Below, piece after piece: positions 985 through 33,690 of a DNA stretch of 37,417 nucleotides (position 1 is its first letter; each line of letters opens with the position of its first letter). This stretch comes from an uncultured Clostridia bacterium (GTDB lineage: Bacteria; Bacillota; Clostridia; Christensenellales; Aristaeellaceae): positions 1 through 37,417 of the forward strand of contig CAMVFE010000021.1 of NCBI GenBank assembly GCA_947166705.1. Direction: 5' to 3'. The notes beneath the pieces were generated by a model. That model saw only the letters and a list, made by a program, of their open reading frames with translations, searched no databases and was not told the DNA's origin. Position numbers and translations under genes: made by a program.

Positions 985-1458
985 TTACACCAGGTTGCGG
1001 GTATTTAGCACGATCTCCGCCATGCCGCCGTCCGGCGCGCCGGAAACATGCGCATTGGTCAGCTGCACCATGGTGTCCGCCGTGCCGACGGAGAACGCCC
1101 CGGTGGCCTTCACGATGGACACCGCGTCCCCGACCCCGGCGGCGGTGGACGCCATCGGCACCACGATATGGCCCCGCACCAGCACGTCCACCAGGTCGTT
1201 CGCGGCATAGCTTCCGACGCTTTCGCCGTAGGCGTCCGGCGTCTTGGAGGGATTCCGCACCGTGACGCCGACGAACTTCGCGGCGGTATGGCTCGCCCCG
1301 AAGGGCACCACCCCGTCCTTGCTGTCGCTCAGCGCCACCGGCACGCCGAAGCCGATCTCCGCGCCGGATTTGTTCGCCATCGCCACCACCACGTCGTCCA
1401 GGCCCCGGGCGATGGCGCCCGCGAAGCCGTGGGTAAAATTCTTCAGTACCTTTCCCAT
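985..1458 (-). CDS. Phage structural cement protein (Gp24-like)
   Basis: This 157-residue protein starts at ATG 1458 after a GAGGT ribosome binding site. It is a small beta-rich protein with regular glycine turns (GFGVPVALSDSKDGVVPFG, then a VRGHIVVPMASTAAGVGDAV segment). This is the profile of decoration or cement proteins that clamp neighbouring capsid subunits and stabilise the expanded head. It sits directly upstream of the major capsid gene and downstream of the protease/scaffold gene, which fits. Known of the family: cement proteins are often encoded next to the capsid gene. I infer function from position and general pattern; there are no catalytic residues to test. Confidence 0.65.
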   Translation of the reverse strand: MGKVLKNFTHGFAGAIARGLDDVVVAMANKSGAEIGFGVPVALSDSKDGVVPFGASHTAAKFVGVTVRNPSKTPDAYGESVGSYAANDLVDVLVRGHIVVPMASTAAGVGDAVSIVKATGAFSVGTADTMVQLTNAHVSGAPDGGMAEIVLNTRNLV

Positions 1459-1485
1459 GGATTTACCTCGCTTTCAGTCAGATTT

Positions 1486-1545
1486 TCGGGGAAACAGCAT
1501 TCGGAGGAACAGCATTCGGGGAAGCAGCATACGGAGGAACGCCGG
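1486..1545. repeat. Tandem 15/30-bp repeat in intergenic spacer
   Basis: Three 15-base units (1486-1500, 1501-1515, 1516-1530), each of the form TCGGRGAARCAGCAT, are followed by a decayed fourth unit (1531-1545). Units 1 and 3 are most alike, as are 2 and 4, so it can also be read as two 30-base units. It fills the gap between the protease/scaffold stop (1552) and the cement gene start (1458). Confidence 0.85.
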
Positions 1546-1551
1546 AATGCC

Positions 1552-2550
1552 TTACCTTTTCATGTTGACGTTCCTGCCGGCCATGATCTTCCGGCCCAGG
1601 CTCCGGCCGGACTCATCCCGGGCCCCGGCCTTCCGCAGCGCCTCGTAGGCATTGGCCTTTCCGGCCTTCGCCGCGCGGCGGCTCAGCTTCTGCATCCGGG
1701 CCGCGACGTCGGCGTTGAACCGCTGCCGCTCCCTGGGCGTCATGCGCTTCAGCTGCGGCCGGAAGGAAGCCAGGGCAGCGCGCAGCGCGTCCGCGGTCCG
1801 CGCGGCTTCCTCCGGGTCCTCCTCGTCCTCGCCGTCCAGGGGCTCCAGGATGCCGGAAAGGATTTCATCCTCATCATCCGCGGCAGGGTCTTCGTTTTCC
1901 GGGCCGCGGGCCTCCGGGTCTTCATCTCCGCCGGCCTCCAGGATTTCCGCCACAAGCGTTTCCACCGGATCGCCTTCCGCGTCCCCGAGGGCGCCGGCTC
2001 CGGCCCCCAGCGCTTCCGCGGCAGCCTGAGCGGCGGCCCCCGCCAGGTTCTCCGCCGCGGCCTGCGCCGCGCCCTGAACAACTCCCTGAGTCGCAGCTTC
2101 CGCCAGGCCTTCCGCCGCGGCTTCGGCGACCGCCGGGATCACCGCCGGGCCGCCTTCCTCATCCCCGGTCTTCTGCGCCGGGCCGCAGTCCGCCGCGCCG
2201 CCAAGCAGGGCGATAATCCGTCGCAGGGCCTCCAGGATCTCCGGACCGCAGTCGGTCCCGGGGTGTTCCGGTTCCCCGCCGGCGGTCAGCTCCGCAGGAA
2301 TGTCCGTGTCCGCGGGCAGCGCCGCCTCGGGGGAGATTTCCCGCGCCGCGGCTTCCAGATTCTCCGCCACCGCGCCGGCCACCGCGTTCACTAGCGGATC
2401 CCCCGCCGCCGGGGCAGCTTCCTCCGCGGCCGCCGCGGCCGCGGCGGGCGCCTCCATCACCTCGGTGATGAGTTCGGCCAAGCCGTCCACATCCCCGTCC
2501 CGAGCCATCCGGGCCATCAGCTTCGCGCGCCAGAGACTTTTCTTCTTCAT
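1552..2550 (-). CDS. Nested scaffold protein from internal in-frame start
   Basis: Inside the protease reading frame, at codon 208, an ATG (2550-2548) is preceded by AAAGGAG with seven bases between, a near ideal ribosome binding site in the middle of an open frame. The product would be 332 residues starting MKKKSLWRAKLMARMARD. It is alanine-rich with many acidic residues and few aromatics, and ends in a basic segment (KRMTPRERQRFNADVAARM onward). This is typical of phage scaffold proteins, whose C-terminus binds capsid protein. Separate translation from the internal site would give excess scaffold over protease-scaffold fusion. Seen: the ribosome binding site and composition. Inferred: actual use of the start. 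Confidence 0.68.
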   Translation of the reverse strand: MKKKSLWRAKLMARMARDGDVDGLAELITEVMEAPAAAAAAAEEAAPAAGDPLVNAVAGAVAENLEAAAREISPEAALPADTDIPAELTAGGEPEHPGTDCGPEILEALRRIIALLGGAADCGPAQKTGDEEGGPAVIPAVAEAAAEGLAEAATQGVVQGAAQAAAENLAGAAAQAAAEALGAGAGALGDAEGDPVETLVAEILEAGGDEDPEARGPENEDPAADDEDEILSGILEPLDGEDEEDPEEAARTADALRAALASFRPQLKRMTPRERQRFNADVAARMQKLSRRAAKAGKANAYEALRKAGARDESGRSLGRKIMAGRNVNMKR

Positions 2551-3171
2551 GTGTTTGCTCCTTTCAGCATGATCGTTTGAGTCCGCCGGGAGTTTTACGG
2601 GCCGCGGCGCCTTCGCCGCCGCCCGGTCCGGTTCCCGGTCCCGGATGGAAACGCGGGGCCCCGCCCGGCCGGAATCGACGACCGCGACATGGTTCCCGCG
2701 GATTTCCCGCTGAATGAAATGCCCCTCCTCCTCGCAGAGGGTGTAGGTATAGCCGCAGGAGATCTCCCGCTTCCCGCCCAGAATCTCTTCGATCAGGGCG
2801 GGGTCGTGAATCATCAGGTCCGCCAGCAGCAGGTCGGATTCTGCGCCGGCTCCGCGGCGGACGTGCTGGGCGTGACCCCGGTGCAGCCAGCGGCTGTTCT
2901 CCGCCGTCACCCCGTCGGGCGCGGACGGATGATCGTTCGTCACGGGCATGCCCTCGAAGGACGCGATACAGGCGGGGGAAAAGACCTCCTCCTCCGGGCG
3001 GAGCACCGGGATCAGCCGGTCGTCCGGCCCGGGCAGCCCCAGCTCCGAGGGCAGGTATTCCTGGACGCCCGTCCGCGCCACCGGCACGTTCAGGCAGATG
3101 AGGTAGCCCTCCGGCTCCCGTCGGGAGATGTTTTCGGAGAGGCGGGTTCCGAAATAGGTCAGGATGATCAC
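1552..3171 (-). CDS. Phage prohead protease-like protein (DUF2213) fused to scaffold
   Basis: The open frame gives 539 residues. Residues 1-180 match the DUF2213 type seen in phage head modules (FGTRLSENISRREPEGYLIC near the N-terminus, then FEGMPVTNDHPS, and EILGGKREISCGYTYTL), a group thought to mature the prohead. Residues 208-539 are a separate scaffold-like part, strongly alanine and glutamate rich, ending in a basic tail. The GTG at 3171 lies inside the Shine-Dalgarno stretch AAAGAGGTGATC, so translation may really begin at CTG 3162, eight bases after GAGG. Neighbours are the portal upstream and cement downstream. The protease plus nested scaffold layout is known from lambda-type phages (C and Nu3). 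No catalytic residue can be assigned with confidence. Confidence 0.7.
   Translation of the reverse strand: MIILTYFGTRLSENISRREPEGYLICLNVPVARTGVQEYLPSELGLPGPDDRLIPVLRPEEEVFSPACIASFEGMPVTNDHPSAPDGVTAENSRWLHRGHAQHVRRGAGAESDLLLADLMIHDPALIEEILGGKREISCGYTYTLCEEEGHFIQREIRGNHVAVVDSGRAGPRVSIRDREPDRAAAKAPRPVKLPADSNDHAERSKHMKKKSLWRAKLMARMARDGDVDGLAELITEVMEAPAAAAAAAEEAAPAAGDPLVNAVAGAVAENLEAAAREISPEAALPADTDIPAELTAGGEPEHPGTDCGPEILEALRRIIALLGGAADCGPAQKTGDEEGGPAVIPAVAEAAAEGLAEAATQGVVQGAAQAAAENLAGAAAQAAAEALGAGAGALGDAEGDPVETLVAEILEAGGDEDPEARGPENEDPAADDEDEILSGILEPLDGEDEEDPEEAARTADALRAALASFRPQLKRMTPRERQRFNADVAARMQKLSRRAAKAGKANAYEALRKAGARDESGRSLGRKIMAGRNVNMKR
2548..2566 (-). promoter_or_regulatory. Internal ribosome binding site for nested scaffold
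   Basis: The minus strand reads GAAAGGAGCAAACACATG here, within an uninterrupted frame. The match to the anti-Shine-Dalgarno sequence and the seven-base spacing decide the nested start. Confidence 0.7.
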
Positions 3172-3187
3172 CTCTTTCTGATGGTTG

Positions 3188-3213
3188 GGAACGATAGGGA
3201 CGGTCCTTTTCGT
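3188..3213 (-). repeat. REP-like hairpin element, subfamily 1
   Basis: This copy carries GGAACGATA then the core GGGACGGTCCTTTT then CGT on the plus strand. It lies between the portal stop (3281) and the DUF2213 gene (3171), both on the minus strand; the minus strand reads AAAAGGACCGTCCC. Confidence 0.85.
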
Positions 3214-3280
3214 GCCCCCGCGGCTCCGGTGGGAGCAGGGCGCCGATGGGAAACGTCTCCGGGACTGACGTCCCGGCGGC

Positions 3281-4678
3281 TCACAGGAGCTCCAGCAGGC
3301 GGGAGCGGGCCTCGGCCGGGGTCAGGAGGCCGGCCTGCAGGGCCCGGATCAGCGTGTCCGCGCCGCGGGCGCGGATTTCCGCCTCCTCCCCGGGGGAGAC
3401 GGGCATGAGCGAAGGAAACTGGATCTTCATCTGTTCCGGGACGAAGCCCCAGCAGCTCAGCGCCATGACGGGCAGCAGCTTCTCCAGCGCGGGGCGCAGG
3501 TGCCGCTCCCGCATCTGGCCGATGAGCTCGTAGTAGTTCTTCAGGTCCGATTCGCCGGTGGCGTTCATGCCCTGGGGGCTGCGCCCGAAGAGCCGCGTCG
3601 CGGGAATGCCGGCGGCGCCGGCCATGTCCATCATGAAGGCCTCGTAGATTTCCGAGAGGCCGGCGAAGGAATAGGGGTGATTCTCGTAGGTATCCCCGGC
3701 GGAGAGCAGCTGCAGCCCGAAGGAGGTGCGCATCCGGTTCTGCTCCGCGACGGCCTCCAGCACCTGGCGGCGCTGGCCTTCCGTTCCCAGAGCCAGCATC
3801 TCCCCGAAATCGCTCATCTTCAGCGTCGTCACGTTCGCCTGGAAAACCAGCCGCGCGATGTTCGCGGAGGTGGCGGAGCGCTTCTCCAGCTCTTCACAGA
3901 TATGCTCCAGCTCGCTGGCGCCCCAGTACCGCGCGGCCTCCTCCTGGGCGCCGGGCAGGTCCCGCCCGGTGAAGCGGAGGACGCGGCTGTGGTGCACCCG
4001 CAGGAGCGCGCCGTCCCCGGTCCGGAAGCTGTAGTACATCGGCAGGCCGAAATCCGGATCGTCCAGGTCGGTCTCCGTCTCCAGCCCCGGCTCCACACCG
4101 TCCACCCGGTCCCGCACCAGCAGGCCCCGGAAGTCCCCGGGGGCGATGCGCTCCATGTCCAGCGGCTCGTCCAGCCGGTCCTCCTGGCCGCGCAGCACCA
4201 TCAGCGCGCAGGCGCCGCCGTAAAGCCGGGCCCAGCGGATGGCCGCGGTGATCTCCCGCCGGATGTCGTGGCGGGCCTCCAGCCGCTCCAGCGCCTCCAG
4301 GTCCTCGGCCGGCGGGCCGGGGGAAAGGGTGTACCAGCTCCGGGTCATGTCCTCGCTGGGCATGTCGATGATCCGCTTCGCCAGCCAGGATTCCCGGTAC
4401 AGGGAGGTCAGCAGGGCGGGGCAGTCCGTCAGGTACGCGGGAAACCCCTCCCGGGCGGGGAAGCCGTCCCGGGCGGAAAAGTCCGCCGGCAGAAAACCGG
4501 AAAAGCCGTCCCTGGCGGAGAAGCCGCCCGGATACGCCGGCGCGCCGCGTCCGGCGGGGACGGAACGGCCGGGCTTCTCCGCGGAACCGCCGATACCGCC
4601 GCTTCCGCTCTTTATGCCGATACCGCCGCGCCCGCTCCTTCCGGCGGTCTTTCGGGGCGCCGGCCCCCGGCGCCGGCT
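3281..4678 (-). CDS. Phage portal protein, DUF1073 type (start uncertain)
   Basis: The conserved part begins with LYRESWLAKRIIDMPSEDM and continues through IRWARLYGGACALMVL, ERIAPGDFRGLLVRDRVDG, SRVLRFTGRDLP, and a C-terminal half with AAGIPATRLFGRSPQGMNAT. This is the DUF1073 pattern of portal proteins, the ring through which DNA enters the head. The frame is open up to a GTG at 4858, but codons above 4678 merely overlie the terminase C-terminus. Between 4678 and about 4420 there is no ATG, GTG or TTG. A GGAAGGAG lies at 4635-4642, but only ATC and ATA codons follow in frame. I therefore give the frame from the terminase stop down. The N-terminal 80 or so residues are Gly/Arg/Ser rich with repeated FSARDGF-like units, unlike usual portals. 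The family name sometimes carries an anti-CBASS label; nothing here supports that role. Confidence 0.78.
   Translation of the reverse strand, partial: SRRRGPAPRKTAGRSGRGGIGIKSGSGGIGGSAEKPGRSVPAGRGAPAYPGGFSARDGFSGFLPADFSARDGFPAREGFPAYLTDCPALLTSLYRESWLAKRIIDMPSEDMTRSWYTLSPGPPAEDLEALERLEARHDIRREITAAIRWARLYGGACALMVLRGQEDRLDEPLDMERIAPGDFRGLLVRDRVDGVEPGLETETDLDDPDFGLPMYYSFRTGDGALLRVHHSRVLRFTGRDLPGAQEEAARYWGASELEHICEELEKRSATSANIARLVFQANVTTLKMSDFGEMLALGTEGQRRQVLEAVAEQNRMRTSFGLQLLSAGDTYENHPYSFAGLSEIYEAFMMDMAGAAGIPATRLFGRSPQGMNATGESDLKNYYELIGQMRERHLRPALEKLLPVMALSCWGFVPEQMKIQFPSLMPVSPGEEAEIRARGADTLIRALQAGLLTPAEARSRLLELL
4435..4530 (-). repeat. Degenerate in-frame repeat in portal N-terminus
   Basis: On the minus strand this segment encodes FSARDGF twice, followed by FPAREGF, with related GCCCGGGANGG-like DNA units about 18-45 bases apart. 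A second small pair, GGCGGTATCGGC, lies upstream (about 4590-4630). The repeats sit exactly where a start codon would be expected. Confidence 0.55.
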
Positions 4679-5943
4679 CAAGCGCGGCCTCCGGCGGGCA
4701 GGCCGCCCATGCGCCGGAAGCGCCCGGTCTTCGTCTGGCAGAGATAGCGCAGGGCGTCCATCGCGTGGTCCCTCTCCTTCAGGGGGCGCTCCTCGCCGCG
4801 CAGCCGCGCCCGGTCGTCCCAGACGTAGGTCTGAATCTCCCGCAGCAGCGCCGGGCACCGGTTCCGCTCCGCCAGCACCTGGCGGTTTCCGATCAGGGTG
4901 GCGGTGGTGGCGATGCCCCCGCGCACGTCATTGTCCGCGTCGGTGATCCGGAAGCCCCGGTTCCGCAGCTCCGCCTTGAAGGAGGCGGCGCTGGGGTCCA
5001 CGATGATCACCGTGTTCCGGTCCCCGCCCAGGAATTCCGCCAGGTCGTCGGCGTACTCTGCGTCCGTCTTCTGGCGGCGGGAGGCGGCGGAGTCCCAGTA
5101 ATATTCCCGGGCGATCCGGAACACCCGCCCGTCGTCCCGGACATCCAGGAAGACGCAGGGGTTTACGGTGCCGTAATCGATGGCGCAGTATCTGCGCATG
5201 CCCTCGTACATCTGCGGATCCTTCTCCTCGTAGGTGTTTTTTTCGGCGTCCCACATGGGGTAGACCGCGCCCTCGGCGCTGACCCATTCGCCGAGGATAT
5301 ACTGGCGGTAGAAGACCCCCTGGAAAGCCAGGGCGTAGCTTTCCCGGATCTCAGGGGCCAGGGTCAGGTTGTCCGCCATGGTGAAGTGCAGCCGGTACAG
5401 GCCGATCTGCTCCGCCCGGTCGATGAAGTCCGTCTTCAGATAATGGAAGGCCCCGGCAGGATTGCAGTTCAGGAAGATGCGGCTGCCGGGCACGGAGCAG
5501 CGGCCGATCATCTGGTCGATGAAGCTGCGGGGAAACAGCGCCGCCTCATCGGCGAAGGCGCCGGCGGCGGTCATGCCCTGCAGCTTGTCCTGGGCGCTGT
5601 CGTTGTCCGCGCCGAAGAGGTGGTAGCGGTTGGTCCCGACGGCGACCACCCCTGCGGACCGCCGGTGCTCCCAAGGCAGCTCCAGCGCCTCGAGCATCTG
5701 GAACAGCGGGGCGAGCACGTTGCGCGTCAGGGCGCCGGCGGTGACCCCGGCCAGGATGAAATCCTGATCGGAGAAGGTCGCCTGGCTCCAGCGCAGGAAG
5801 GACAGGATCATCGCGACCGTCTTGCCGCTGCGGATGGCGCCGTCGGCCAGCATCATGCGGCAGCGCTCCCGGCCGGAGCCCGGATGCCACCAGTACAGGG
5901 CCTGCAGCTGCTTCCAGCTGAAGGGCTGAAAATGAAACGCCAG
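4678..5943 (-). CDS. Phage terminase large subunit (CTG start)
   Basis: This is the motor ATPase and nuclease that packages DNA. With a CTG start at 5943 it has 421 residues: LAFHFQPFSWKQLQALYWW, then Walker A GAIRSGKT at about residues 35-42, then Walker B GAFADEAAL with D-E at about 132-133. The C-terminal nuclease has the acidic motifs CAIDYGTVNP, VIIVDPSA and DHAMDALRY. The CTG is seven bases after GGAAGGGAGG. The first ATG (5856) would begin only a few residues before Walker A and lose the glutamine-containing adenine-binding segment, so the upstream start is preferred. It follows the small terminase by 52 bases and ends at the portal. The layout is that of PBSX/Terminase_6-type enzymes. 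Confidence 0.9.
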   Translation of the reverse strand: MAFHFQPFSWKQLQALYWWHPGSGRERCRMMLADGAIRSGKTVAMILSFLRWSQATFSDQDFILAGVTAGALTRNVLAPLFQMLEALELPWEHRRSAGVVAVGTNRYHLFGADNDSAQDKLQGMTAAGAFADEAALFPRSFIDQMIGRCSVPGSRIFLNCNPAGAFHYLKTDFIDRAEQIGLYRLHFTMADNLTLAPEIRESYALAFQGVFYRQYILGEWVSAEGAVYPMWDAEKNTYEEKDPQMYEGMRRYCAIDYGTVNPCVFLDVRDDGRVFRIAREYYWDSAASRRQKTDAEYADDLAEFLGGDRNTVIIVDPSAASFKAELRNRGFRITDADNDVRGGIATTATLIGNRQVLAERNRCPALLREIQTYVWDDRARLRGEERPLKERDHAMDALRYLCQTKTGRFRRMGGLPAGGRA

Positions 5944-5960
5944 TCGGATCCCTCCCTTCC
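5941..5960 (-). promoter_or_regulatory. Shine-Dalgarno supporting a CTG start
   Basis: The minus strand reads GGAAGGGAGG, seven bases, then CTG. No ATG, GTG or TTG is in frame between this site and the ATG at 5856, and the intervening codons are conserved terminase sequence. Confidence 0.65.
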
Positions 5961-5995
5961 CGTCCCGGCAGGCTCCGGTTTTTCCCGGTCGCCGC

Positions 5996-6427
5996 TCAGC
6001 ACTCTTCCTCGGGCGTCTCTGGCGCCCCGGATGCCTCCGGCTCCTCCCCGAACAGCGCCCGGACCGCCGGGACGTCCGCCTCCCCGATGGAGAAGATCTC
6101 CCGGGCCAGGCGCTTCGCCGCCTCGCCGCGGTTGTCCGGCGGCGCGGAGAGGAAGCGGTTGATCTGGTGCTGGATCAGCGTCGCGGATTTCTTCAGCTGG
6201 TCGAAGCTGGCCCGGCGGATCTCGATCAGCCCGTCCTGCCGCAGCATGAACAGGGTCTCCGCCAGCGGCAGGCGGTAGTTCCGCCGGCACCAGCGGGCCA
6301 GCTTCTCCTCCGTGGTGCCGATATAGCCCAGGATTTCCGGAATCTCGCACTGCAGCGCGGCGAGCTCCTCAAACGTCTGCCGGGTCAGCTCCCGGCGGAG
6401 GCCCTTCAGGGGCGGAAAATCGTTCAT
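5996..6427 (-). CDS. Phage terminase small subunit / packaging HTH protein
   Basis: The protein has 143 residues from ATG 6427 (MNDFPPLKG), which has AAAGGAG four bases upstream; an upstream in-frame ATG at 6466 has no comparable site. The middle contains a helix-turn-helix-like stretch (IPEILGYIGTTEEKLARWCR, followed by a long helix ending LIQHQINRFL). The tail is acidic (EASGAPETPEEEC). Small terminases bind the packaging site and recruit the large subunit. Its place directly before the large terminase is the main support. It is the first gene of the minus-strand phage module; nothing phage-like is visible upstream of it. Confidence 0.7.
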   Translation of the reverse strand: MNDFPPLKGLRRELTRQTFEELAALQCEIPEILGYIGTTEEKLARWCRRNYRLPLAETLFMLRQDGLIEIRRASFDQLKKSATLIQHQINRFLSAPPDNRGEAAKRLAREIFSIGEADVPAVRALFGEEPEASGAPETPEEEC

Positions 6428-6624
6428 GCGGCTCCTTTCGTCCCGTGGAAAACCTTTCATCTCCAAGGATACACATTTCCGGCGGACGGTTCGGGACGCC
6501 GACGGATTTCCCCGGACGAATTTCAGGGAAGAAATGCAGGAAAATCAACGCTCGCGGGACTTTTTCCGGGCGATTTCCGGATGGACTTTTTTGAGGCGTA
6601 AATGATGATCCGGAACACCAAAAA

Positions 6625-26981: not shown

Positions 26982-27072
26982 CCGGGTTTGGATTCCTTAT
27001 TTCCCCCGGGGTTGATTTCCCATGCCTCCGGGGAAGGAATCCCCGTTTCCCCCGGGGTTGGATTCCTTATTC
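26982..27072. repeat. Interleaved short direct repeats after the PEP mutase gene
   Basis: GGATTCCTTATT occurs twice (about 26990 and 27060) and TTCCCCCGGGGTTG twice (about 27001 and 27047), with a further GGGGAAGGAATCCCC. The upstream copy overlaps the stop codon of the PEP mutase fusion gene. The pattern resembles the tandem spacer at 1486-1545. Confidence 0.7.
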
Positions 27073-29076
27073 CTCCGGAATCAGCCGGATGATCTCCCGG
27101 AAGGGCATGCACGCCGCGTCCGCCTCCAGCGCCCGGTGGTTCCGCAGGATGGTCTCCGCGGTCTGCTCCATCGCCGGGAAGGCCGAGCGCGTCAGCTGGT
27201 TGGCGTAGATGATGATGTTCACGCCCCGGGCGCGGAACTCCTCCTCGGTCACGGCGTTGAAGCTGGTGGGCACGACCACCAGCGGCGTCGCCGCGTCCCG
27301 GGCCCGGAAGGCCTCCACGAAGGCGAAGATCTCCGCGGGATCCTTCTTCCGGGAATGGATCATGATGGCGTCCGCTCCCGCCGCCGTGAAGGCGAAGGCC
27401 CGGGCGAGGGCGTCGTCCATGCCCCGCTCAAGGATCAGGCTTTCGATCCGCGCGCAGATCATGAAATCCTTCGTCCGCTGCGCGCGCTTTCCGGCGGCGA
27501 TCTTCTCCGCGAAATGCTCAATGCTGTCCTGGGTCTGCCGCACCTCCGTGCCGAAGAGGGAGTTCTTCTTCAGCCCGGTCTTGTCCTCGATGATCACCAT
27601 GGACACGCCCATGCGCTCCAGGGACCGCACCGTGTACACGAAGTGCTCCGTCAGCCCGCCGGTGTCCCCGTCGAAGATGATGGGCTTCGTCGTCACCTCG
27701 CAGATCTCGTCCACCGTGCGGAAGCGGGAGGTCATGTCCACCAGCTCGATATCCGGCTTGCCGCGGGAGGTCGAATCGCACAGGGAGGAAATCCACATGG
27801 CGTCGAACTGGCGGTATCCGCCGCCCTCCGGCACCTTCGCGTTCTCCACGATCAGGCCCGTCAGCCCGCTGTGGGCCTCCATGGCGGTGACCGTGCCCTT
27901 CAGGGTCAGCAGCTTGCGCAGGCGGCCGCGGCGCATGTCCGGCGTGCCCGCCTCCAGCCGCGCCCGCTTCTCCATCTCGGCGAGGCCCTCGTCCCGGGCG
28001 TAGGGGAATTCCACCAGGTGGCCGCCCCAGCCCGCCAGCACCTCCTGCACCTCCTGCCGGATCGGCGCCTGGACGCCGGTGACCCAGTCGTCCCCGTGGA
28101 CAACGTAGTCCGGCCGGTATTTCTCCAGGTTTTCCCGGTAGCTGAGGGTCCGCTGCTCCACGACCTGATCCACCAGCGCCAGGGAGCGCATCAGCGCCGC
28201 CCGCTCGGGGAAGGGCACCAACGGATAGCGCTTGTAGCCGGCCACCGCCTCGTCGCTCAGCACGCCCACGATCAGCCGGCCCAGCCGCCGCGCCCGCCGC
28301 AGCAGGGCGATGTGCCCGCTGTGCAGCAGGTCCGCGGAGAAGCAGAGGTAGACCGTGCGGTTTTCCAGCGCCGCGAGGCGCTTCGACACGTTCTCCAGGT
28401 CCTCCGGGGTGTCGATCTCGGCGCAGAGCCGGTCGCCCACGTCCAGCGCGCGGATGCGGCAGGCGCCCTCCAGCCGGTTCAGCGCCTCCTCGGCGTAGCA
28501 GGAGGTCTCCCCGGCCTCGCACAGCTCCCCGATCTTCGAAAGCCACCGGTCCCAGTCCTCCGCCTTCAGGTGGTACAGCGCCTGGGCCTCCAGGGCGTCG
28601 TCAAAGCAGTCCACGCCCACCCGGAGCACCCGGCCGTCCCGCACCACCGCCTTGAAATCCTTCTCCGGCAGGGGCAGCGTGGAGGAAACCTTCATGCAGC
28701 TGTCCTCCGAGGCGGCCGCCTCCTCCAGCACGGAGGGCTCGAAGACCAGGTCCCCGTGCATCAGCAGGATTTCCTCTCCCCGCAGCAGGTCCCGCGCGCA
28801 CCAGATGGAGTAGATGTAGTTCGTCTCCGCGTACCGCGGGTTGCGCACGAAGGCGATGTCCAGCCCGGTGTTCAGGGACTTGCAGTAGTCCATCAGCACC
28901 TGATCATAATACCCGGTGGTAATCACGACCTGGCGGATGCCCGCCTCGGCCAGCAGCCGCAGCTGGCGGGAGAGGATCGTCTCCCGGGGCGAAATCTCCG
29001 TCATGCATTTGGGATGCTCCCGGGTCAGGTCCCCCATCCGGTGGCCCAGGCCTGAATTCAGGATCAGCGCTTTCAT
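27067..29076 (-). CDS. Three-domain fusion: NTP transferase + cytidylyltransferase-like + PEP mutase
   Basis: The protein has 669 residues from ATG 29076 (GGAG upstream). Domain 1 (1-235) is a nucleotidyltransferase: LNSGLGHRMGDLTREHPKCM, then MHGDLVF (D109 likely metal ligand). Domain 2 (238-370) is a cytidylyltransferase-like fold with HSGH at 252-255 and VVHGDDW near 326. Domain 3 (385-669) is phosphoenolpyruvate mutase: SSLCDSTSRGKPDIELVD, FDGDTGG, and the diagnostic EDKTGLKKNS (about 497-506). PEP mutase makes phosphonopyruvate, the entry to nearly all natural C-P compounds. Nucleotidyltransferase domains joined to it are known to activate the phosphonate, usually as CMP-2-aminoethylphosphonate, for transfer to glycans or lipids. 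Two such domains of different folds in one chain are unusual. No decarboxylase gene is near. Confidence 0.92.
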   Translation of the reverse strand: MKALILNSGLGHRMGDLTREHPKCMTEISPRETILSRQLRLLAEAGIRQVVITTGYYDQVLMDYCKSLNTGLDIAFVRNPRYAETNYIYSIWCARDLLRGEEILLMHGDLVFEPSVLEEAAASEDSCMKVSSTLPLPEKDFKAVVRDGRVLRVGVDCFDDALEAQALYHLKAEDWDRWLSKIGELCEAGETSCYAEEALNRLEGACRIRALDVGDRLCAEIDTPEDLENVSKRLAALENRTVYLCFSADLLHSGHIALLRRARRLGRLIVGVLSDEAVAGYKRYPLVPFPERAALMRSLALVDQVVEQRTLSYRENLEKYRPDYVVHGDDWVTGVQAPIRQEVQEVLAGWGGHLVEFPYARDEGLAEMEKRARLEAGTPDMRRGRLRKLLTLKGTVTAMEAHSGLTGLIVENAKVPEGGGYRQFDAMWISSLCDSTSRGKPDIELVDMTSRFRTVDEICEVTTKPIIFDGDTGGLTEHFVYTVRSLERMGVSMVIIEDKTGLKKNSLFGTEVRQTQDSIEHFAEKIAAGKRAQRTKDFMICARIESLILERGMDDALARAFAFTAAGADAIMIHSRKKDPAEIFAFVEAFRARDAATPLVVVPTSFNAVTEEEFRARGVNIIIYANQLTRSAFPAMEQTAETILRNHRALEADAACMPFREIIRLIPEE

Positions 29077-29147: not shown

Positions 29148-30269
29148 TTACCCGAGGGGCCCGAGATCCACCAGGTAGCAGCCCGCGCGGGTCGCGCTGT
29201 CCGACGCCTGGCCGATCCGCTCCGGATGCAGCTCCTCCTCCCGGAGGATGCGCTCCGGGTACGTCCGCCGCATCTCCTCCAGGGCCGCCAGGTCCGCCTG
29301 CGTCAGGATGAACCGGACCTCCGTCCGCCGCGGCGCGCGCACCGGGCGCAGATCCGGCTCCCGGCCGACCGCGGTATCGATCACCGCGGCCACGAAATCC
29401 ACCCCCGTGGAGCGGAGCACCAGGTCGCTGCCAATGCAGTCCCCGCCCATGCGCGCGCCGATCTCGATCAGCCTGATCCGGCCCTCCGCGTCGATCTTCA
29501 GCTCCGTATGCGAGGCGCCGTTTTCGATCTCCAGCGTGTCCAGGGCGTGCTCCGTCACCGCCCGCACCCGCGCCAGGGTTTCCGCGTCGACGGGCGCCGG
29601 CTCCAGGTGCCCGGTTTCGATGAAGCCGGGCGCGCCGGTGGTGTACTTCAGCGTCAGGGCCAGGAAATGATGCCGCCCGCGGAAGGAGATGTATTCCACG
29701 CTGTACTCCTGCCCCTCGGCAAACTCCTCCGCCAGCGCCTTTCCCTCGAAGCTCTGCGCCTGCGCGCGGGCCACCGCCGCAGGCAGTTCCGCGGGATCCT
29801 CCACCTTCGTGATGCCCCGGCTGCCGCTGCGGTCGGTGGGCTTGACGATGGCCGGCATGGGAAGCAGGGCCTTCAGCGTCTCCAGGTCCGCGTCCTTCCC
29901 GACGAGGAAGCTGCGGGGGCAGGGATCCCCCCGGCGGAAAAAGGCCTCCCGCATCCGGTGCTTGTTGGTGCTCATCTCCGTGCTGCGCAGGGAGTTGCCC
30001 GGAAGCCCCAGCCGGTCCGCCACGTAATTCACCGTCACCACGGCCAGGTCCGAGGCGATGCTGCAGATCCCGCAGATGCCGATCTCCCGGCACTTCTCCA
30101 GGATATTCTCCTTTTCCACGATGCTGATGGGATAAAAGAAATCCGCCGCCTTCTCCCCGGGATCCCCCGCCGCCCAGGCGAAGACATGGGTGGTGAAGCC
30201 CATTTCCCGGGCCCTGAGGATCAGCGGCAGCTGGAGATAGCTGGCTCCGATGATGGCAAGATGCTGCAT
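29148..30269 (-). CDS. ATP-grasp ligase of the phosphonate/glycan operon
   Basis: The protein has 373 residues from ATG 30269, with CAGGAGG eight bases before. A pre-ATP-grasp Rossmann part (1-95, HLAIIGASYLQLPLILRARE) is followed by the ATP-grasp fold. That fold shows AIVKPTDRSGSRGI (nucleotide-binding loop, about 140-155), LAEEFAEGQEYSVEYI (about 185), and the metal-binding segment RLIEIGARMGGDCIGSD (about 270). The family joins a carboxylate to an amine or other nucleophile through an acyl phosphate. Between the PEP mutase fusion and two glycosyltransferases, it may ligate an amino acid or a phosphonate carrying a carboxylate, such as phosphonoalanine, to another group; this is inference. 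The spacer to the fusion gene is 71 bases. The substrate cannot be read from sequence. Confidence 0.87.
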   Translation of the reverse strand: MQHLAIIGASYLQLPLILRAREMGFTTHVFAWAAGDPGEKAADFFYPISIVEKENILEKCREIGICGICSIASDLAVVTVNYVADRLGLPGNSLRSTEMSTNKHRMREAFFRRGDPCPRSFLVGKDADLETLKALLPMPAIVKPTDRSGSRGITKVEDPAELPAAVARAQAQSFEGKALAEEFAEGQEYSVEYISFRGRHHFLALTLKYTTGAPGFIETGHLEPAPVDAETLARVRAVTEHALDTLEIENGASHTELKIDAEGRIRLIEIGARMGGDCIGSDLVLRSTGVDFVAAVIDTAVGREPDLRPVRAPRRTEVRFILTQADLAALEEMRRTYPERILREEELHPERIGQASDSATRAGCYLVDLGPLG

Positions 30270-30366: not shown

Positions 30367-31356
30367 TCAGGCCTTCGCCGCCGGATCGTCCTCCGCCCCG
30401 GGGGCGCCGGGGGTCCGCTCGCTGACGATGTAGCGCGGGCGGCGCTTGGTTTCCAGGAAGATCTTTCCGACGTATTCCCCGATCACGCCCAGGGAGATCA
30501 GCTGGATGCCGCCCAGCAGCGCCACGGCGATCAGGGTGCTGGCCCAGCCGGCCACCGCGCTGCCCGCGATCCAGGCGATCAGGGCGTAGAGGATCAGCCC
30601 GAAGGAGATGACCGAAATGGCGACGCCCAGCCCGGTGATGATCCGGATGGGCTTGACGGAGAGGCTTGTGATGCCGTCGAAGGCCAGCGCCAGCATCTTC
30701 TTCAGCGGGTAGTGGCTCTTTCCGGCCATGCGCTCGCTCCGCTCGTAGTAGACGCTGGTGCTCTTGAACCCCACCAGGGGGAACATGCCCCGCAGGAAGA
30801 TGTTGACCTCCCGGAAGTTCGCGAATTCCTTCAGCACCCGGGCGGACACCAGGCGGTAGTCCGCGTGGTTGTAGACCGTGTCGGCGCCCATCCGGTTCAG
30901 CAGGCGGTAGAAGCTCTGGGCCGTGAAGCGCTTGAAGAAGGTGTCCGTCGCCCGGCTGGAGCGCACGCCGTAGACAATCTCCGCGCCGGAGAGGTATTCG
31001 TCCACCATGCTATCCATGGCGCGGATGTCGTCCTGGCCGTCGCAGTCGATGGAAATCGTGATGTCGCAGTGCTCCCGGGCCTCGAGCAGCCCGCAGAGCA
31101 GGGCGTTCTGGTGCCCCCGGTTCCGGCTGAGGCACAGCCCCTGGAAATGGGGATCCTGCCGGCTCAGCTCCGTGATGATCTCCCAGGTGCCGTCCCGGCT
31201 GCCGTCGTTGACGAACAGGATCCGGCTTTCGGGATCGATCTTTCCCGCGTCCGCCATCCGCGCGATCTGCTCCCGGAAAAGGGGCGCCGTCAGGGGCAGC
31301 ACCTCCTCCTCGTTGTAGCAGGGGATAACAATATACAGTACAGGCCTTTTATCCAT
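30367..31356 (-). CDS. GT2 glycosyltransferase, GtrB/DPM1-like
   Basis: The protein has 329 residues from ATG 31356, preceded by AAAGGA. The GT-A domain begins YIVIPCYNEEEVLPLTAPLF, with the metal-binding ISIDCDGQDD (about residue 110), FVNDGSRDGTW and LSRNRGHQNALLCG. Two C-terminal membrane helices (about 235-290) are followed by the GEYVGKIFLETKRRPRYIV tail. Such enzymes move a sugar from a nucleotide to polyprenyl phosphate on the cytosolic face, to be flipped and used outside by GT-C transferases. The neighbouring gene encodes a second member, so two different lipid-linked sugars may be made. An upstream start is rejected because it would translate the REP element at 31378-31409. Confidence 0.9.
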   Translation of the reverse strand: MDKRPVLYIVIPCYNEEEVLPLTAPLFREQIARMADAGKIDPESRILFVNDGSRDGTWEIITELSRQDPHFQGLCLSRNRGHQNALLCGLLEAREHCDITISIDCDGQDDIRAMDSMVDEYLSGAEIVYGVRSSRATDTFFKRFTAQSFYRLLNRMGADTVYNHADYRLVSARVLKEFANFREVNIFLRGMFPLVGFKSTSVYYERSERMAGKSHYPLKKMLALAFDGITSLSVKPIRIITGLGVAISVISFGLILYALIAWIAGSAVAGWASTLIAVALLGGIQLISLGVIGEYVGKIFLETKRRPRYIVSERTPGAPGAEDDPAAKA

Positions 31357-31377
31357 GCTGATTATCCTTTCTCCGGG

Positions 31378-31409
31378 GAAGACACGGGGACGGTTCTTTT
31401 GTCTCTTCC
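31378..31409 (-). repeat. REP-like hairpin element, subfamily 2
   Basis: The plus strand carries GAAGACACGGGGACGGTTC then TTTTGTCTCTTCC; arms GAAGACA and TGTCTCTTC nearly pair. It fills the gap between the two GT2 genes. The minus strand reads AAAAGAACCGTCCCC, matching those genes. Confidence 0.88.
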
Positions 31410-31468
31410 CCCGCTCCGTTCCCGCGCGCGGCACTTTCAGGCGGAGCCTCCGCGCCCCGCATCCCGGC

Positions 31469-32413
31469 TCAGGCCCAGGGGTCGTCCTTCCGCTCCGTGT
31501 CCAGCTCGATCACGTACTGGGGCTTCCGGTTCATGCTGATGAAGATCCGCCCCACGTACTCCCCGACCAGCCCCATGACGATCATCAGGATGCCGAAGAG
31601 CAGCAGGAGCAGGGCCATCATGCTGGTCCAGCCGGCGTCGATCTGCTCCCGCAGGATCAGCTTCCGGACGACCAGCACCAGGCCGACAGCCAGCCCGCCC
31701 AGCGCGGTCCCCGAGCCCAGGAAGGTGGCGATCCGCAGGGGCTTGACGGAAAAGGAGGTGAAGGCGTTCATCCACAGCCGGAAGAGGGAAAAGACCGTGT
31801 AGCCGCTCTCCCCTTCCGCGCGCTCCAGGTGGTCCACCGGCACGTTGATGATCCGGGTCGTGGCCTGCAGCGCCAGCCCGTCCACAAAGGGGAAGGGGCT
31901 TTCGCAGCGGATCATCTGGTCGATGACGAAGCGCTTGGCCGCCCAGTAGCTGGCCATGTACAGGTCCTTCGGCTTGTCCAGCATCCAGGTGAACATCCGG
32001 TTGGTCATCTTCGAGCCCAGGTTCCGGAAGCGGGAGTGCCGCTTCCGGGGATAGTCCGCGTAGACGATGTCGTGCCGCGCGTCGACGGCGTCGATCAGGC
32101 GGAACATCTCCGAGGGCGGATTCTGCCCGTCGTCGTCCAGGGAGACGACGATGTCGCCCGTCACCTGGCGGTATCCCGCCATCAGGGCGGCGTGCTGGCC
32201 GAAATTCCGGCTGAAGCAGATCCCGTGGATATGGGGATCCGCCTCCCGCAGCCGGCGGATCAGCTCCCAGGTTTCATCCGGAGGATTGTCGTTCACCAGG
32301 ATGATCTCGTAATCCAGCTCCGGCCGCTCCGCCAGGGTCCTTCCGATATCCGCCACCACGGGGCCCAGCGTCCTTTCGCTGTGGTAGCAGGGAATCACGC
32401 AGCTGATCTTCAT
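31469..32413 (-). CDS. GT2 glycosyltransferase, ArnC/GtrB-like
   Basis: The protein has 314 residues from ATG 32413, whose first bases overlap the aminotransferase stop (ATGA), indicating translational coupling. The GT-A domain carries SCVIPCYHSERTLGPVV, ILVNDNPPDETWELI, CFSRNFGQHAALMAGY and VVSLDDDGQNPPSEM (about residue 93). The C-terminal helix pair (about 225-290) ends in MGLVGEYVGRIFISMNRKPQ. Coupling to an RffA-type aminotransferase resembles ArnC working with amino-sugars: the enzyme probably loads the aminotransferase-derived sugar onto undecaprenyl phosphate (inference). It is related to, but clearly diverged from, the next gene. Confidence 0.9.
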   Translation of the reverse strand: MKISCVIPCYHSERTLGPVVADIGRTLAERPELDYEIILVNDNPPDETWELIRRLREADPHIHGICFSRNFGQHAALMAGYRQVTGDIVVSLDDDGQNPPSEMFRLIDAVDARHDIVYADYPRKRHSRFRNLGSKMTNRMFTWMLDKPKDLYMASYWAAKRFVIDQMIRCESPFPFVDGLALQATTRIINVPVDHLERAEGESGYTVFSLFRLWMNAFTSFSVKPLRIATFLGSGTALGGLAVGLVLVVRKLILREQIDAGWTSMMALLLLLFGILMIVMGLVGEYVGRIFISMNRKPQYVIELDTERKDDPWA

Positions 32414-33561
32414 TTCCTTCGCCCGCTTTCCGACTGATCAAAGAATGCCCGGACGCCCTCCGTGACCCGCGCCTGGTCCTCCGCGGTGATGCTGTCGTAC
32501 ATCGGCAGGCGCACCAGCCGCTCGCTCTCCCGGGTGGTGAACTCGTCCTCCCCGTGGAACCGGCCGTATTTCAGCCCGGCGGGGGAGGAATGCAGGGGGA
32601 TGTAGTGGAACACGCACTGGACGCCGCGGTCCTTCATGAAGGCGATGAACGCCGTCCGCTCCGCCAGGTCCCGGCATTTCAGGTAGTACATATGCGCGTT
32701 GTGCACGCAGCCCTCGGGGATGTGCGGGACCTCGAAGCGCCCCTCCTCCGCCAGGGGGCGGAAAGCCGCGTCGTAGCGGTTCCAGGCAGCCAGGCGCCGG
32801 GCGTTCATCTCGTCCGCCGCCTCCAGCTGCGCCCAGAGGTAGGCGGCGTTCAGCTCGGAGGGCAGGTAGCTGTCCCCGAAATCGACCCAGGTGTATTTGT
32901 CCACCTGCCCGCGGAAGAACCGGGACCGGTTCGTCCCCTTCTCCCGCAGGATTTCCGCCCGCTCGATATATTTCGGGTCGCGGATCAGCAGCGCGCCGCC
33001 CTCGCCCATGGAAAAATTCTTCGTTTCATGAAAGGAATAGGCCCCGAAATCCCCGATCGTGCCCAGCGGCCGGCCGTGCCAGGAGGACATGACGCCCTGG
33101 GCCGCGTCCTCCACGACCTTCAGACCGTGCTTCTCCGCAACCGCGAGGATCGCATCCATTTCGCAGGCGACGCCGGCATAGTGCACCGGCACGACGACCC
33201 GGGTCCGGTCCGTGACCGCGTCCTCGATTTTCCGCTCGTCCAGGTTCATGGTGTCCGGCCGGATATCCGTGAACACCAGTTTCGCCCCCGCCAGCACGAA
33301 GGCCGTCGCGGTGGAGGAGAAGGTGTAGGAGGGCAGGATGACCTCGTCCCCCGGCTCCAGGCCGCACAGCAGCGCGGCCATATCCAGCGCCGTCGTGCCG
33401 CTGGTGGTCAGCAGGGCCTTGGCCGTGCCGAAGCGGCGCTCCAGCCACTCGGCGCATTTTTTCGTGAAGGCGCCGTCGCCGCAGATCCTGTGCGACGCCA
33501 CGGCCTCCGCCATATACGCCATCTCCCGGCCTGTATAGGGCGGGATGTTGAACTCCACCAT
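32410..33561 (-). CDS. DegT/RffA-type nucleotide-sugar 4-aminotransferase
   Basis: The protein has 383 residues from ATG 33561 after GGAGGGG. This PLP enzyme shows the WecE/RffA pattern: MVEFNIPPYTGREMAYM at the N-terminus, LLTTSGTTALDMAALL, EVILPSYTFSSTATAFVLAG, VVEDAAQGVMSSW, and the lysine of SFHETKNFSMGEGGAL (about 187) that binds the cofactor. RffA makes dTDP-4-amino-4,6-dideoxygalactose from the 4-keto-6-deoxy sugar. First gene of the operon, downstream of a strong promoter (33661-33690). It is not of the class V type usually making 2-aminoethylphosphonate, so it more likely serves the sugar part of the product. Matching 4-keto donors could come from a dTDP-glucose dehydratase elsewhere. 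Confidence 0.9.
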   Translation of the reverse strand: MVEFNIPPYTGREMAYMAEAVASHRICGDGAFTKKCAEWLERRFGTAKALLTTSGTTALDMAALLCGLEPGDEVILPSYTFSSTATAFVLAGAKLVFTDIRPDTMNLDERKIEDAVTDRTRVVVPVHYAGVACEMDAILAVAEKHGLKVVEDAAQGVMSSWHGRPLGTIGDFGAYSFHETKNFSMGEGGALLIRDPKYIERAEILREKGTNRSRFFRGQVDKYTWVDFGDSYLPSELNAAYLWAQLEAADEMNARRLAAWNRYDAAFRPLAEEGRFEVPHIPEGCVHNAHMYYLKCRDLAERTAFIAFMKDRGVQCVFHYIPLHSSPAGLKYGRFHGEDEFTTRESERLVRLPMYDSITAEDQARVTEGVRAFFDQSESGRRK

Positions 33562-33660
33562 CGCGGTCCCCTCCGTTTCCGCTTTCCGGGTTTTGAAAAG
33601 CGCTGCGCCGGACGCGCGGCAAACAGACCGCAGCGCGGCATGCGCGTCCCGTCGATGCTG

Positions 33661-33690
33661 ATTATACACGGAACCGGCGTCCCCTGACAA
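33661..33690 (-). promoter_or_regulatory. Promoter of the phosphonate/glycan operon
   Basis: On the minus strand, -35 TTGTCA (33685-33690), an 18-base spacer and a consensus -10 TATAAT (33661-33666) are seen. The leader would be about 90 bases. Confidence 0.75.

Follow-up and report, generated by a model that had tools for sequence, protein, structure and literature searches.

Gene associations of a PEP mutase fused to two nucleotidyltransferase domains point to a probable 2-hydroxyethylphosphonate pathway in Clostridia and Bacteroidales

INTRODUCTION

Fusions of phosphoenolpyruvate (PEP) mutase with nucleotidyltransferases have been inventoried by Rice et al. 2019 (PMC6697681). In the available part of that paper, 1,485 PEP mutases (Ppm) carry the motif EDKX5NS, approximately 33% of them being fused to a PF12804 domain, 23.6% to a PF01467 domain, and 42 (2.8%) to both, and these last are counted there without an assigned pathway or substrate. 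Here, we analyze a protein that has the same Ppm, PF12804, and PF01467 domains in one chain (the triple fusion), encoded in a 37,417-nucleotide stretch of an uncultured Clostridia bacterium (contig CAMVFE010000021.1, assembly GCA_947166705.1), which as a whole is called the window. A preliminary description of this DNA started from the premise that a single nucleotidyltransferase domain accompanies PEP mutase; the 42 published triple fusions contradict it, and novelty of the three-domain architecture was rejected for the same reason. This architecture has been published and is widespread; the pathway assignment proposed here is new. No pathway for triple fusions was recognized in the open-access literature searched, outside of which most subscription papers lie, and the wording "alcohol dehydrogenase" is absent from the main text of Rice et al.

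The closest described enzymes are PntC, LicC, and Fom1. According to PMC6697681, two PF12804 proteins (PntC) prefer 2-aminoethylphosphonate (AEP), and Glu104 and Glu196 of the T. denticola enzyme are positioned for contact with the AEP amine; in LicC, a CTP:phosphocholine cytidylyltransferase (1jyk), the acidic amine contacts are Asp105 and Asp192. The PF01467 domain of Fom1 is cited there with activity on 2-hydroxyethylphosphonate (HEP). The window protein is about 20% identical to the AEP cytidylyltransferase PntC (T. denticola Tde1415, A. rimae Ari1348), from which it differs by a histidine, His107, in place of Glu104; the same histidine sets its first domain apart from LicC. With Fom1, a cytidylyltransferase (CyTase)-Ppm of fosfomycin biosynthesis, it shares the arrangement of domain 2 and mutase, and its domain 2 is 52% identical to the Fom1 CyTase (5x3d). 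However, Fom1 is described with the CyTase and without a PntC-type domain, and the window protein sits among surface-polymer genes.

RESULTS

The triple fusion is a real and intact protein of a known architecture. Its frame encodes 669 residues and a stop from an ATG start, and the same frame is open farther upstream (1,008 residues if counted from a GTG at 30093). Alignments with the best 80 of at least 582 relatives found in a scan of species genomes begin at residue 1 in 79 cases and at residue 3 in one. All 80 share the three-domain architecture and align over their full length or almost all of it, with 66 to 85% identity, which rules out a chance or miscalled frame. The three Pfam domains stand above their gathering scores: NTP_transf_3 (PF12804) at residues 3 to 122 (36.4 bits, cutoff 27, 109 of 160 model positions), CTP_transf_like (PF01467) at residues 248 to 346 (53.8 bits, cutoff 21, 96 of 133), and PEP_mutase (PF13714) at residues 386 to 644 (192.7 bits, cutoff 31.5, 240 of 240). 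Together with EDKX5NS in the same chain, this is the composition of the triple-fusion Ppm of Rice et al., whose rule as applied takes at least 60% of each Pfam model aligned. The NCBIfam model of PEP mutase, TIGR02320, scores 397.5 bits against an equivalog cutoff of 319.55, and the motifs EDKTGLKKNS and HSGH lie at residues 497 to 506 and 252 to 255. The AlphaFold2 model (mean pLDDT 84.2, pTM 0.61) resembles solved structures of PntC, Fom1 CyTase, and PEP mutase, with the rows over domain 2 found in the Foldseek listing and none in that of VIA-align. The Pfam, NCBIfam, and structure matches bear out the preliminary description of a 669-residue PEP mutase joined to two nucleotidyltransferases that differ in fold, and the motifs of both are intact.

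An 81-sequence alignment shows no variation at R13, P22, K23, H107, D109, C218, D222, and H252 or in the EDK and NS residues of the mutase motif, and H255 is likewise invariant in a 33-sequence alignment. All 46 domain 2 rows, 5 of which are duplicates, keep HxGH. The ratio of nonsynonymous to synonymous rates (omega) in nine pairs was 0.02 to 0.38 for the two transferase domains and 0.005 to 0.24 for the mutase where synonymous divergence was estimable, 8 of 27 values being saturated. Among 19 proteins, identity averages 67.5% in domain 1, 68.6% in domain 2, and 83.8% in the mutase. By these measures neither transferase domain looks degenerate, and a degenerate domain was ruled out as an explanation; the loss of metal or HxGH residues that the preliminary description had named as refuting its proposal was not seen.

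The carriers among the best 80 are mainly rumen or gut Clostridia and Bacteroidales, as named in their records. Cultured carriers are Segatella copri DSM 18205 (homologue WP_006848642.1), Xylanibacter ruminicola D31d, Ruminococcus flavefaciens ND2009, and [Clostridium] symbiosum ATCC 14940. One of 237 plasmid records having a match carries the triple fusion.

The genes beside the triple fusion suggest its pathway. Because the 80 loci are the best of at least 582, their counts tilt toward close relatives, and several of the contigs stop near the gene; neighbors past the fetched DNA would escape. Profiles matched an iron alcohol dehydrogenase in 71 loci, phosphonopyruvate decarboxylase (Ppd) in 70, both in 67, and LicD in 32; scored in the same way, AEP transaminase was found in 0 of 80. 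In Segatella copri, the triple fusion is followed by Ppd, a reductase named phosphonoacetaldehyde reductase in RefSeq, a CDP-glycerol glycerophosphotransferase-family protein, an O-antigen polymerase, and a flippase. By established phosphonate biochemistry, the set of Ppd and phosphonoacetaldehyde reductase yields HEP. Given the joint presence of Ppd and dehydrogenase and the lack of AEP transaminase in these loci, the product of the cluster is probably HEP, and AEP was rejected as the product. The cluster dehydrogenases fall below the cutoff of TIGR03405, the phosphonate-linked model of iron alcohol dehydrogenases (Fe-ADH), and one tested member scores no better with it than with other Fe-ADH models. 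A CDP-glycerol glycerophosphotransferase profile matches in 10 of the 80 loci (7 at 294 bits or more); the polyol phosphate suggested in the preliminary description is neither backed nor contradicted.

A comparison sample of PEP mutases placed this association in a wider frame. Of 398 genomes drawn from the window's phylum, 16 had a PEP mutase over the TIGR02320 cutoff, as did 32 of 391 drawn from its class, 3 being shared, and the 45 mutases of the sample are all those over the cutoff in both draws, minus the window's own. The triple fusions, the genes next to them, and 14 AEP transaminases supplied the profiles by which the DNA surrounding the mutases was scored; one locus below the cutoff (L134) and five duplicates (L135 to L139) were excluded ahead of counting. 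Phyla beyond the window's are represented just by the 80 loci and one plasmid. The sample and the 80 loci are not independent, since some contigs, being equal in length, may be identical (L029 and L160, L014 and L166, and L077 and L162, for example).

Of the 45 mutases, 21 have a nucleotidyltransferase of the domain 1 type (at least 120 bits), which is fused to the mutase in 11 and is a separate protein no more than 6 kb away in 10; these 21 have the dehydrogenase in 19 cases, Ppd in 17, and AEP transaminase in none. Another 18 have just a weakly similar, PntC-like nucleotidyltransferase, with AEP transaminase in 16, Ppd in 17, and the dehydrogenase in none. The remaining 6 (L121, L145, L147, L153, L156, and L158) have no nucleotidyltransferase match within 6 kb, although L147 shows a weak one in another scoring. 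The association between nucleotidyltransferase type and pathway gene gave Fisher p values of 3e-9 and 4e-9, both inflated by kinship. The genes of two adjacent clusters in L140 were allotted by hand for these counts; without this, the 6-kb range assigns an AEP transaminase to one HEP-type mutase and the dehydrogenase to one mutase of the AEP type. In that locus (G528:C49), a HEP-type triple-fusion cluster, with its Ppd in split frames, adjoins an AEP-type cluster. Dehydrogenase and domain 1 are also joined physically, as a domain-1-type nucleotidyltransferase is fused to an iron alcohol dehydrogenase in L168:11010-12710, and the two share a single long frame in L167.

The position of His107 follows the same division. 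H-G-D occurs at residues 107 to 109 in 21 of 21 HEP-type rows that span these residues (the window and 20 loci) and His107 in 81 of 81 triple-fusion rows, while the AEP-type rows have E-x-D at the corresponding site in 16 of 16. In the HMMER alignment, His107 faces Glu104 of T. denticola PntC; the counterpart of Glu196 could not be mapped in domain 1. The PntC consensus GXG(T/S)RX4-8PK, as given by Rice et al., differs from the GLGHR..PK of the window by a histidine at the T/S position, which over 81 rows is Ser in 32, His in 28, Thr in 10, Arg in 6, Gln in 3, and other residues in two. Domain 1 has the LicC/PntC fold, and its top structural match among transferases is PntC; besides sugar-phosphate families, its best NCBIfam model is that of inositol-1-phosphate cytidylyltransferase, far under the cutoff. 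In the domain 1 tree, whose groups were assigned by profile score, the HEP type forms one clade (SH-aLRT 100, with a long-branch warning). Lacking the consensus, the glutamate, and an AEP transaminase in the cluster, domain 1 falls outside the AEP-specific PntC and probably has a PntC-like action on another substrate. Of the new readings, the one with the best support is that it would be a HEP-type relative of PntC.

Domain 2 behaves differently. It lies directly N-terminal to the mutase, as in Fom1, matches the HEP-CMP-bound structure of the Fom1 CyTase with a root mean square deviation of 1.0 (Foldseek), and is carried by 42 of the 45 mutases. Likeness to Fom1 fails as proof of HEP use, since four AEP-type domain 2 sequences are equally near (52 to 55% identity). 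Fom1 clusters with four AEP-type and three HEP-type rows, and nine other AEP-type rows (35 to 41%) and the HEP-type L157 (31%) are more distant. In the tree of domain 2 and mutase, the triple fusions form a single clade (96/93), and the HEP or AEP label, the former assigned partly from profile score, requires at least three changes; L157, with a domain-1-type nucleotidyltransferase and the dehydrogenase, falls within a group with full support whose other rows are of AEP type or untyped. These label changes and the placement of L157 indicate that the unit of mutase and domain 2 has been paired with either pathway. In these sequence patterns, domain 1 tracks the pathway, and domain 2 stays with the mutase in both.

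Other arrangements were seen in the sample. In L128, L129, and L131, the mutase chain has a LicC-like match in the place of domain 2, without HxGH, beside a second LicC-like nucleotidyltransferase, Ppd, and AEP transaminase; the three further LicC-like domains of these loci read Y/F-G-D. A third cluster type (L147, L152, and L155) combines the domain 2/mutase fusion with Ppd, a nucleotidyltransferase with E-G-D in all three rows, and an approximately 395-residue protein, for which the L147 copy gave no Pfam or NCBIfam match within the limits applied. AEP transaminase and the dehydrogenase are both missing nearby, and this cluster type possibly makes another phosphonate. L158, where a domain 2/mutase fusion stands beside aldolase-like and second thiamine pyrophosphate-enzyme-like proteins (named by eye) and a distant dehydrogenase, possibly makes a different one.

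In the window itself (Table 1), the triple fusion belongs to a local cassette, with the WecE transaminase, two glycosyltransferases, and ATP-grasp gene nearby, that is conserved in L002 and L004, where the ATP-grasp gene is at another place; the short contig L003 keeps the glycosyltransferases. The WecE transaminase was rejected as an AEP transaminase on its NF008687 score. The frames at about 985 to 6466 on the minus strand resemble, by eye, phage head and packaging genes. The genome has one PEP mutase and an Fe-ADH (C22:12066-13112) that is 39% identical to a cluster member and scores 308.9 bits with the cluster profile. No AEP transaminase over the cutoff was found in this assembly, an absence that is weak evidence, as the assembly is 71% complete.

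TABLE 1 Features of the window around the triple fusion
Feature	Position	Strand	Basis and remarks
Triple-fusion protein, 669 residues	27067..29076	-	Pfam, NCBIfam, AlphaFold2 model, structure matches
Domain 1, residues 1-232, PntC/LicC-type nucleotidyltransferase, H-G-D at 107-109	28381..29076	-	
Domain 2, residues 238-375, Fom1-type HxGH cytidylyltransferase	27952..28365	-	PF01467; 5x3d, 52% identity, rmsd 1.0
Domain 3, residues 386-669, PEP mutase with EDKTGLKKNS	27070..27921	-	PF13714, TIGR02320
ATP-grasp ligase-like gene	29148..30269	-	PF13535; directly upstream of triple fusion
Family 2 glycosyltransferase b (PgfS-like)	30367..31434	-	Pfam/NCBIfam; conserved beside triple fusion in L002-L004
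Family 2 glycosyltransferase a (ArnC-like)	31469..32413	-	Pfam/NCBIfam; conserved in L002-L004
WecE-type amino-sugar transaminase	32410..33690	-	NF008687, 613.4 bits, cutoff 375; conserved in L002 and L004

DISCUSSION

From the observed domains, active-site motifs, gene association, tree pattern, and His/Glu difference, we infer the catalytic activities, the product, and the transfer step as follows. The PEP mutase domain would make phosphonopyruvate, which separate Ppd and iron alcohol dehydrogenase enzymes would convert to HEP. Domain 1, as a HEP-type relative of PntC, would then move CMP from CTP onto HEP, and a surface glycan may receive HEP through LicD-like or CDP-glycerol-type transferases. 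Domain 2, an intact Fom1-type enzyme that accompanies the mutase in clusters of either type, HEP or AEP, might act on HEP too or on a compound common to both. We consider it slightly better than an even bet that the triple fusion both starts and activates a surface HEP pathway in this way, with domain 1 making CMP-HEP.

Several observations weigh against this reading. Ppd, the dehydrogenase, or both are missing nearby in 13 of the 80 loci, partly owing to contig ends; 10 loci have no nearby Ppd, and of 9 of their genomes checked, 7 have Ppd over the cutoff elsewhere, one (L004) has a partial match below the cutoff, and one (L002) has none. Two of the 21 mutases with a domain-1-type nucleotidyltransferase (L142 and L143) are the ones without the dehydrogenase. 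Ppd and the dehydrogenase are also absent beside the triple fusion in the window, whose genome offers a Ppd candidate in two contig-end pieces (C47 and C27), an Fe-ADH (that of C22) below the TIGR03405 cutoff, and a LicD on another contig (C13). The His/Glu difference amounts to one evolutionary event, because the HEP type is a single clade. Finally, the identity of domain 2 to Fom1, which acts on HEP according to Rice et al., suggests domain 2 as the HEP enzyme.

In a rather unlikely alternative, HEP would be cytidylylated by domain 2, as it is by Fom1, leaving domain 1 to activate a different constituent of the same polymer, such as an alcohol, polyol, or sugar phosphate. The close structural match of domain 2 to the HEP-CMP-bound CyTase, the subthreshold inositol-1-phosphate cytidylyltransferase match of domain 1, and the CDP-glycerol-type matches would all fit it. 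However, AEP clusters too have domain 2 on their mutase, and some of these copies are as near to Fom1, while the dehydrogenase is tracked by domain 1, not domain 2, and is fused to the domain 1 type in L168; PntC, moreover, is the best structural match of domain 1 among transferases. That both domains use the same phosphonate, either partly redundantly or under different growth conditions or with different acceptors, seems improbable to us: each has a known phosphonate cytidylyltransferase among its relatives, and 39 of the 45 mutases combine a fused transferase with a nucleotidyltransferase match, either on the same chain or no more than 6 kb away, but purifying selection on both domains in one clade and the recurrence of the pair in both pathways fit two jobs better. 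Still less credence is due to the idea that domain 2 has lost catalysis and serves PEP mutase chiefly by binding CTP, in regulation or as a scaffold; its fusion to the mutase whichever the product would agree with this, but HxGH is kept in every row, its mean identity is close to that of domain 1, and it closely matches an active relative, the Fom1 CyTase.

The preferred reading, that domain 1 makes CMP-HEP, could be extended to a two-transferase rule for the phosphonate clusters of these bacteria, which we offer as a long shot. Domain 2 would cytidylylate a compound shared by the AEP and HEP pathways (phosphonopyruvate or phosphonoacetaldehyde, for example), so that the early steps would be CMP-tethered and CTP would pull PEP mutase forward; domain 1 or PntC would make the pathway-specific CMP-phosphonate, and the triple fusion would be the fully fused pair.

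If the assignment of domain 1 is true, residue 107 (His or Glu) of the PntC-type domain would predict HEP versus AEP surface activation from sequence, and the PntC-type enzymes would gain a second substrate class. Furthermore, the unfused and mosaic clusters frame the question of what role the second, mutase-fused transferase has.
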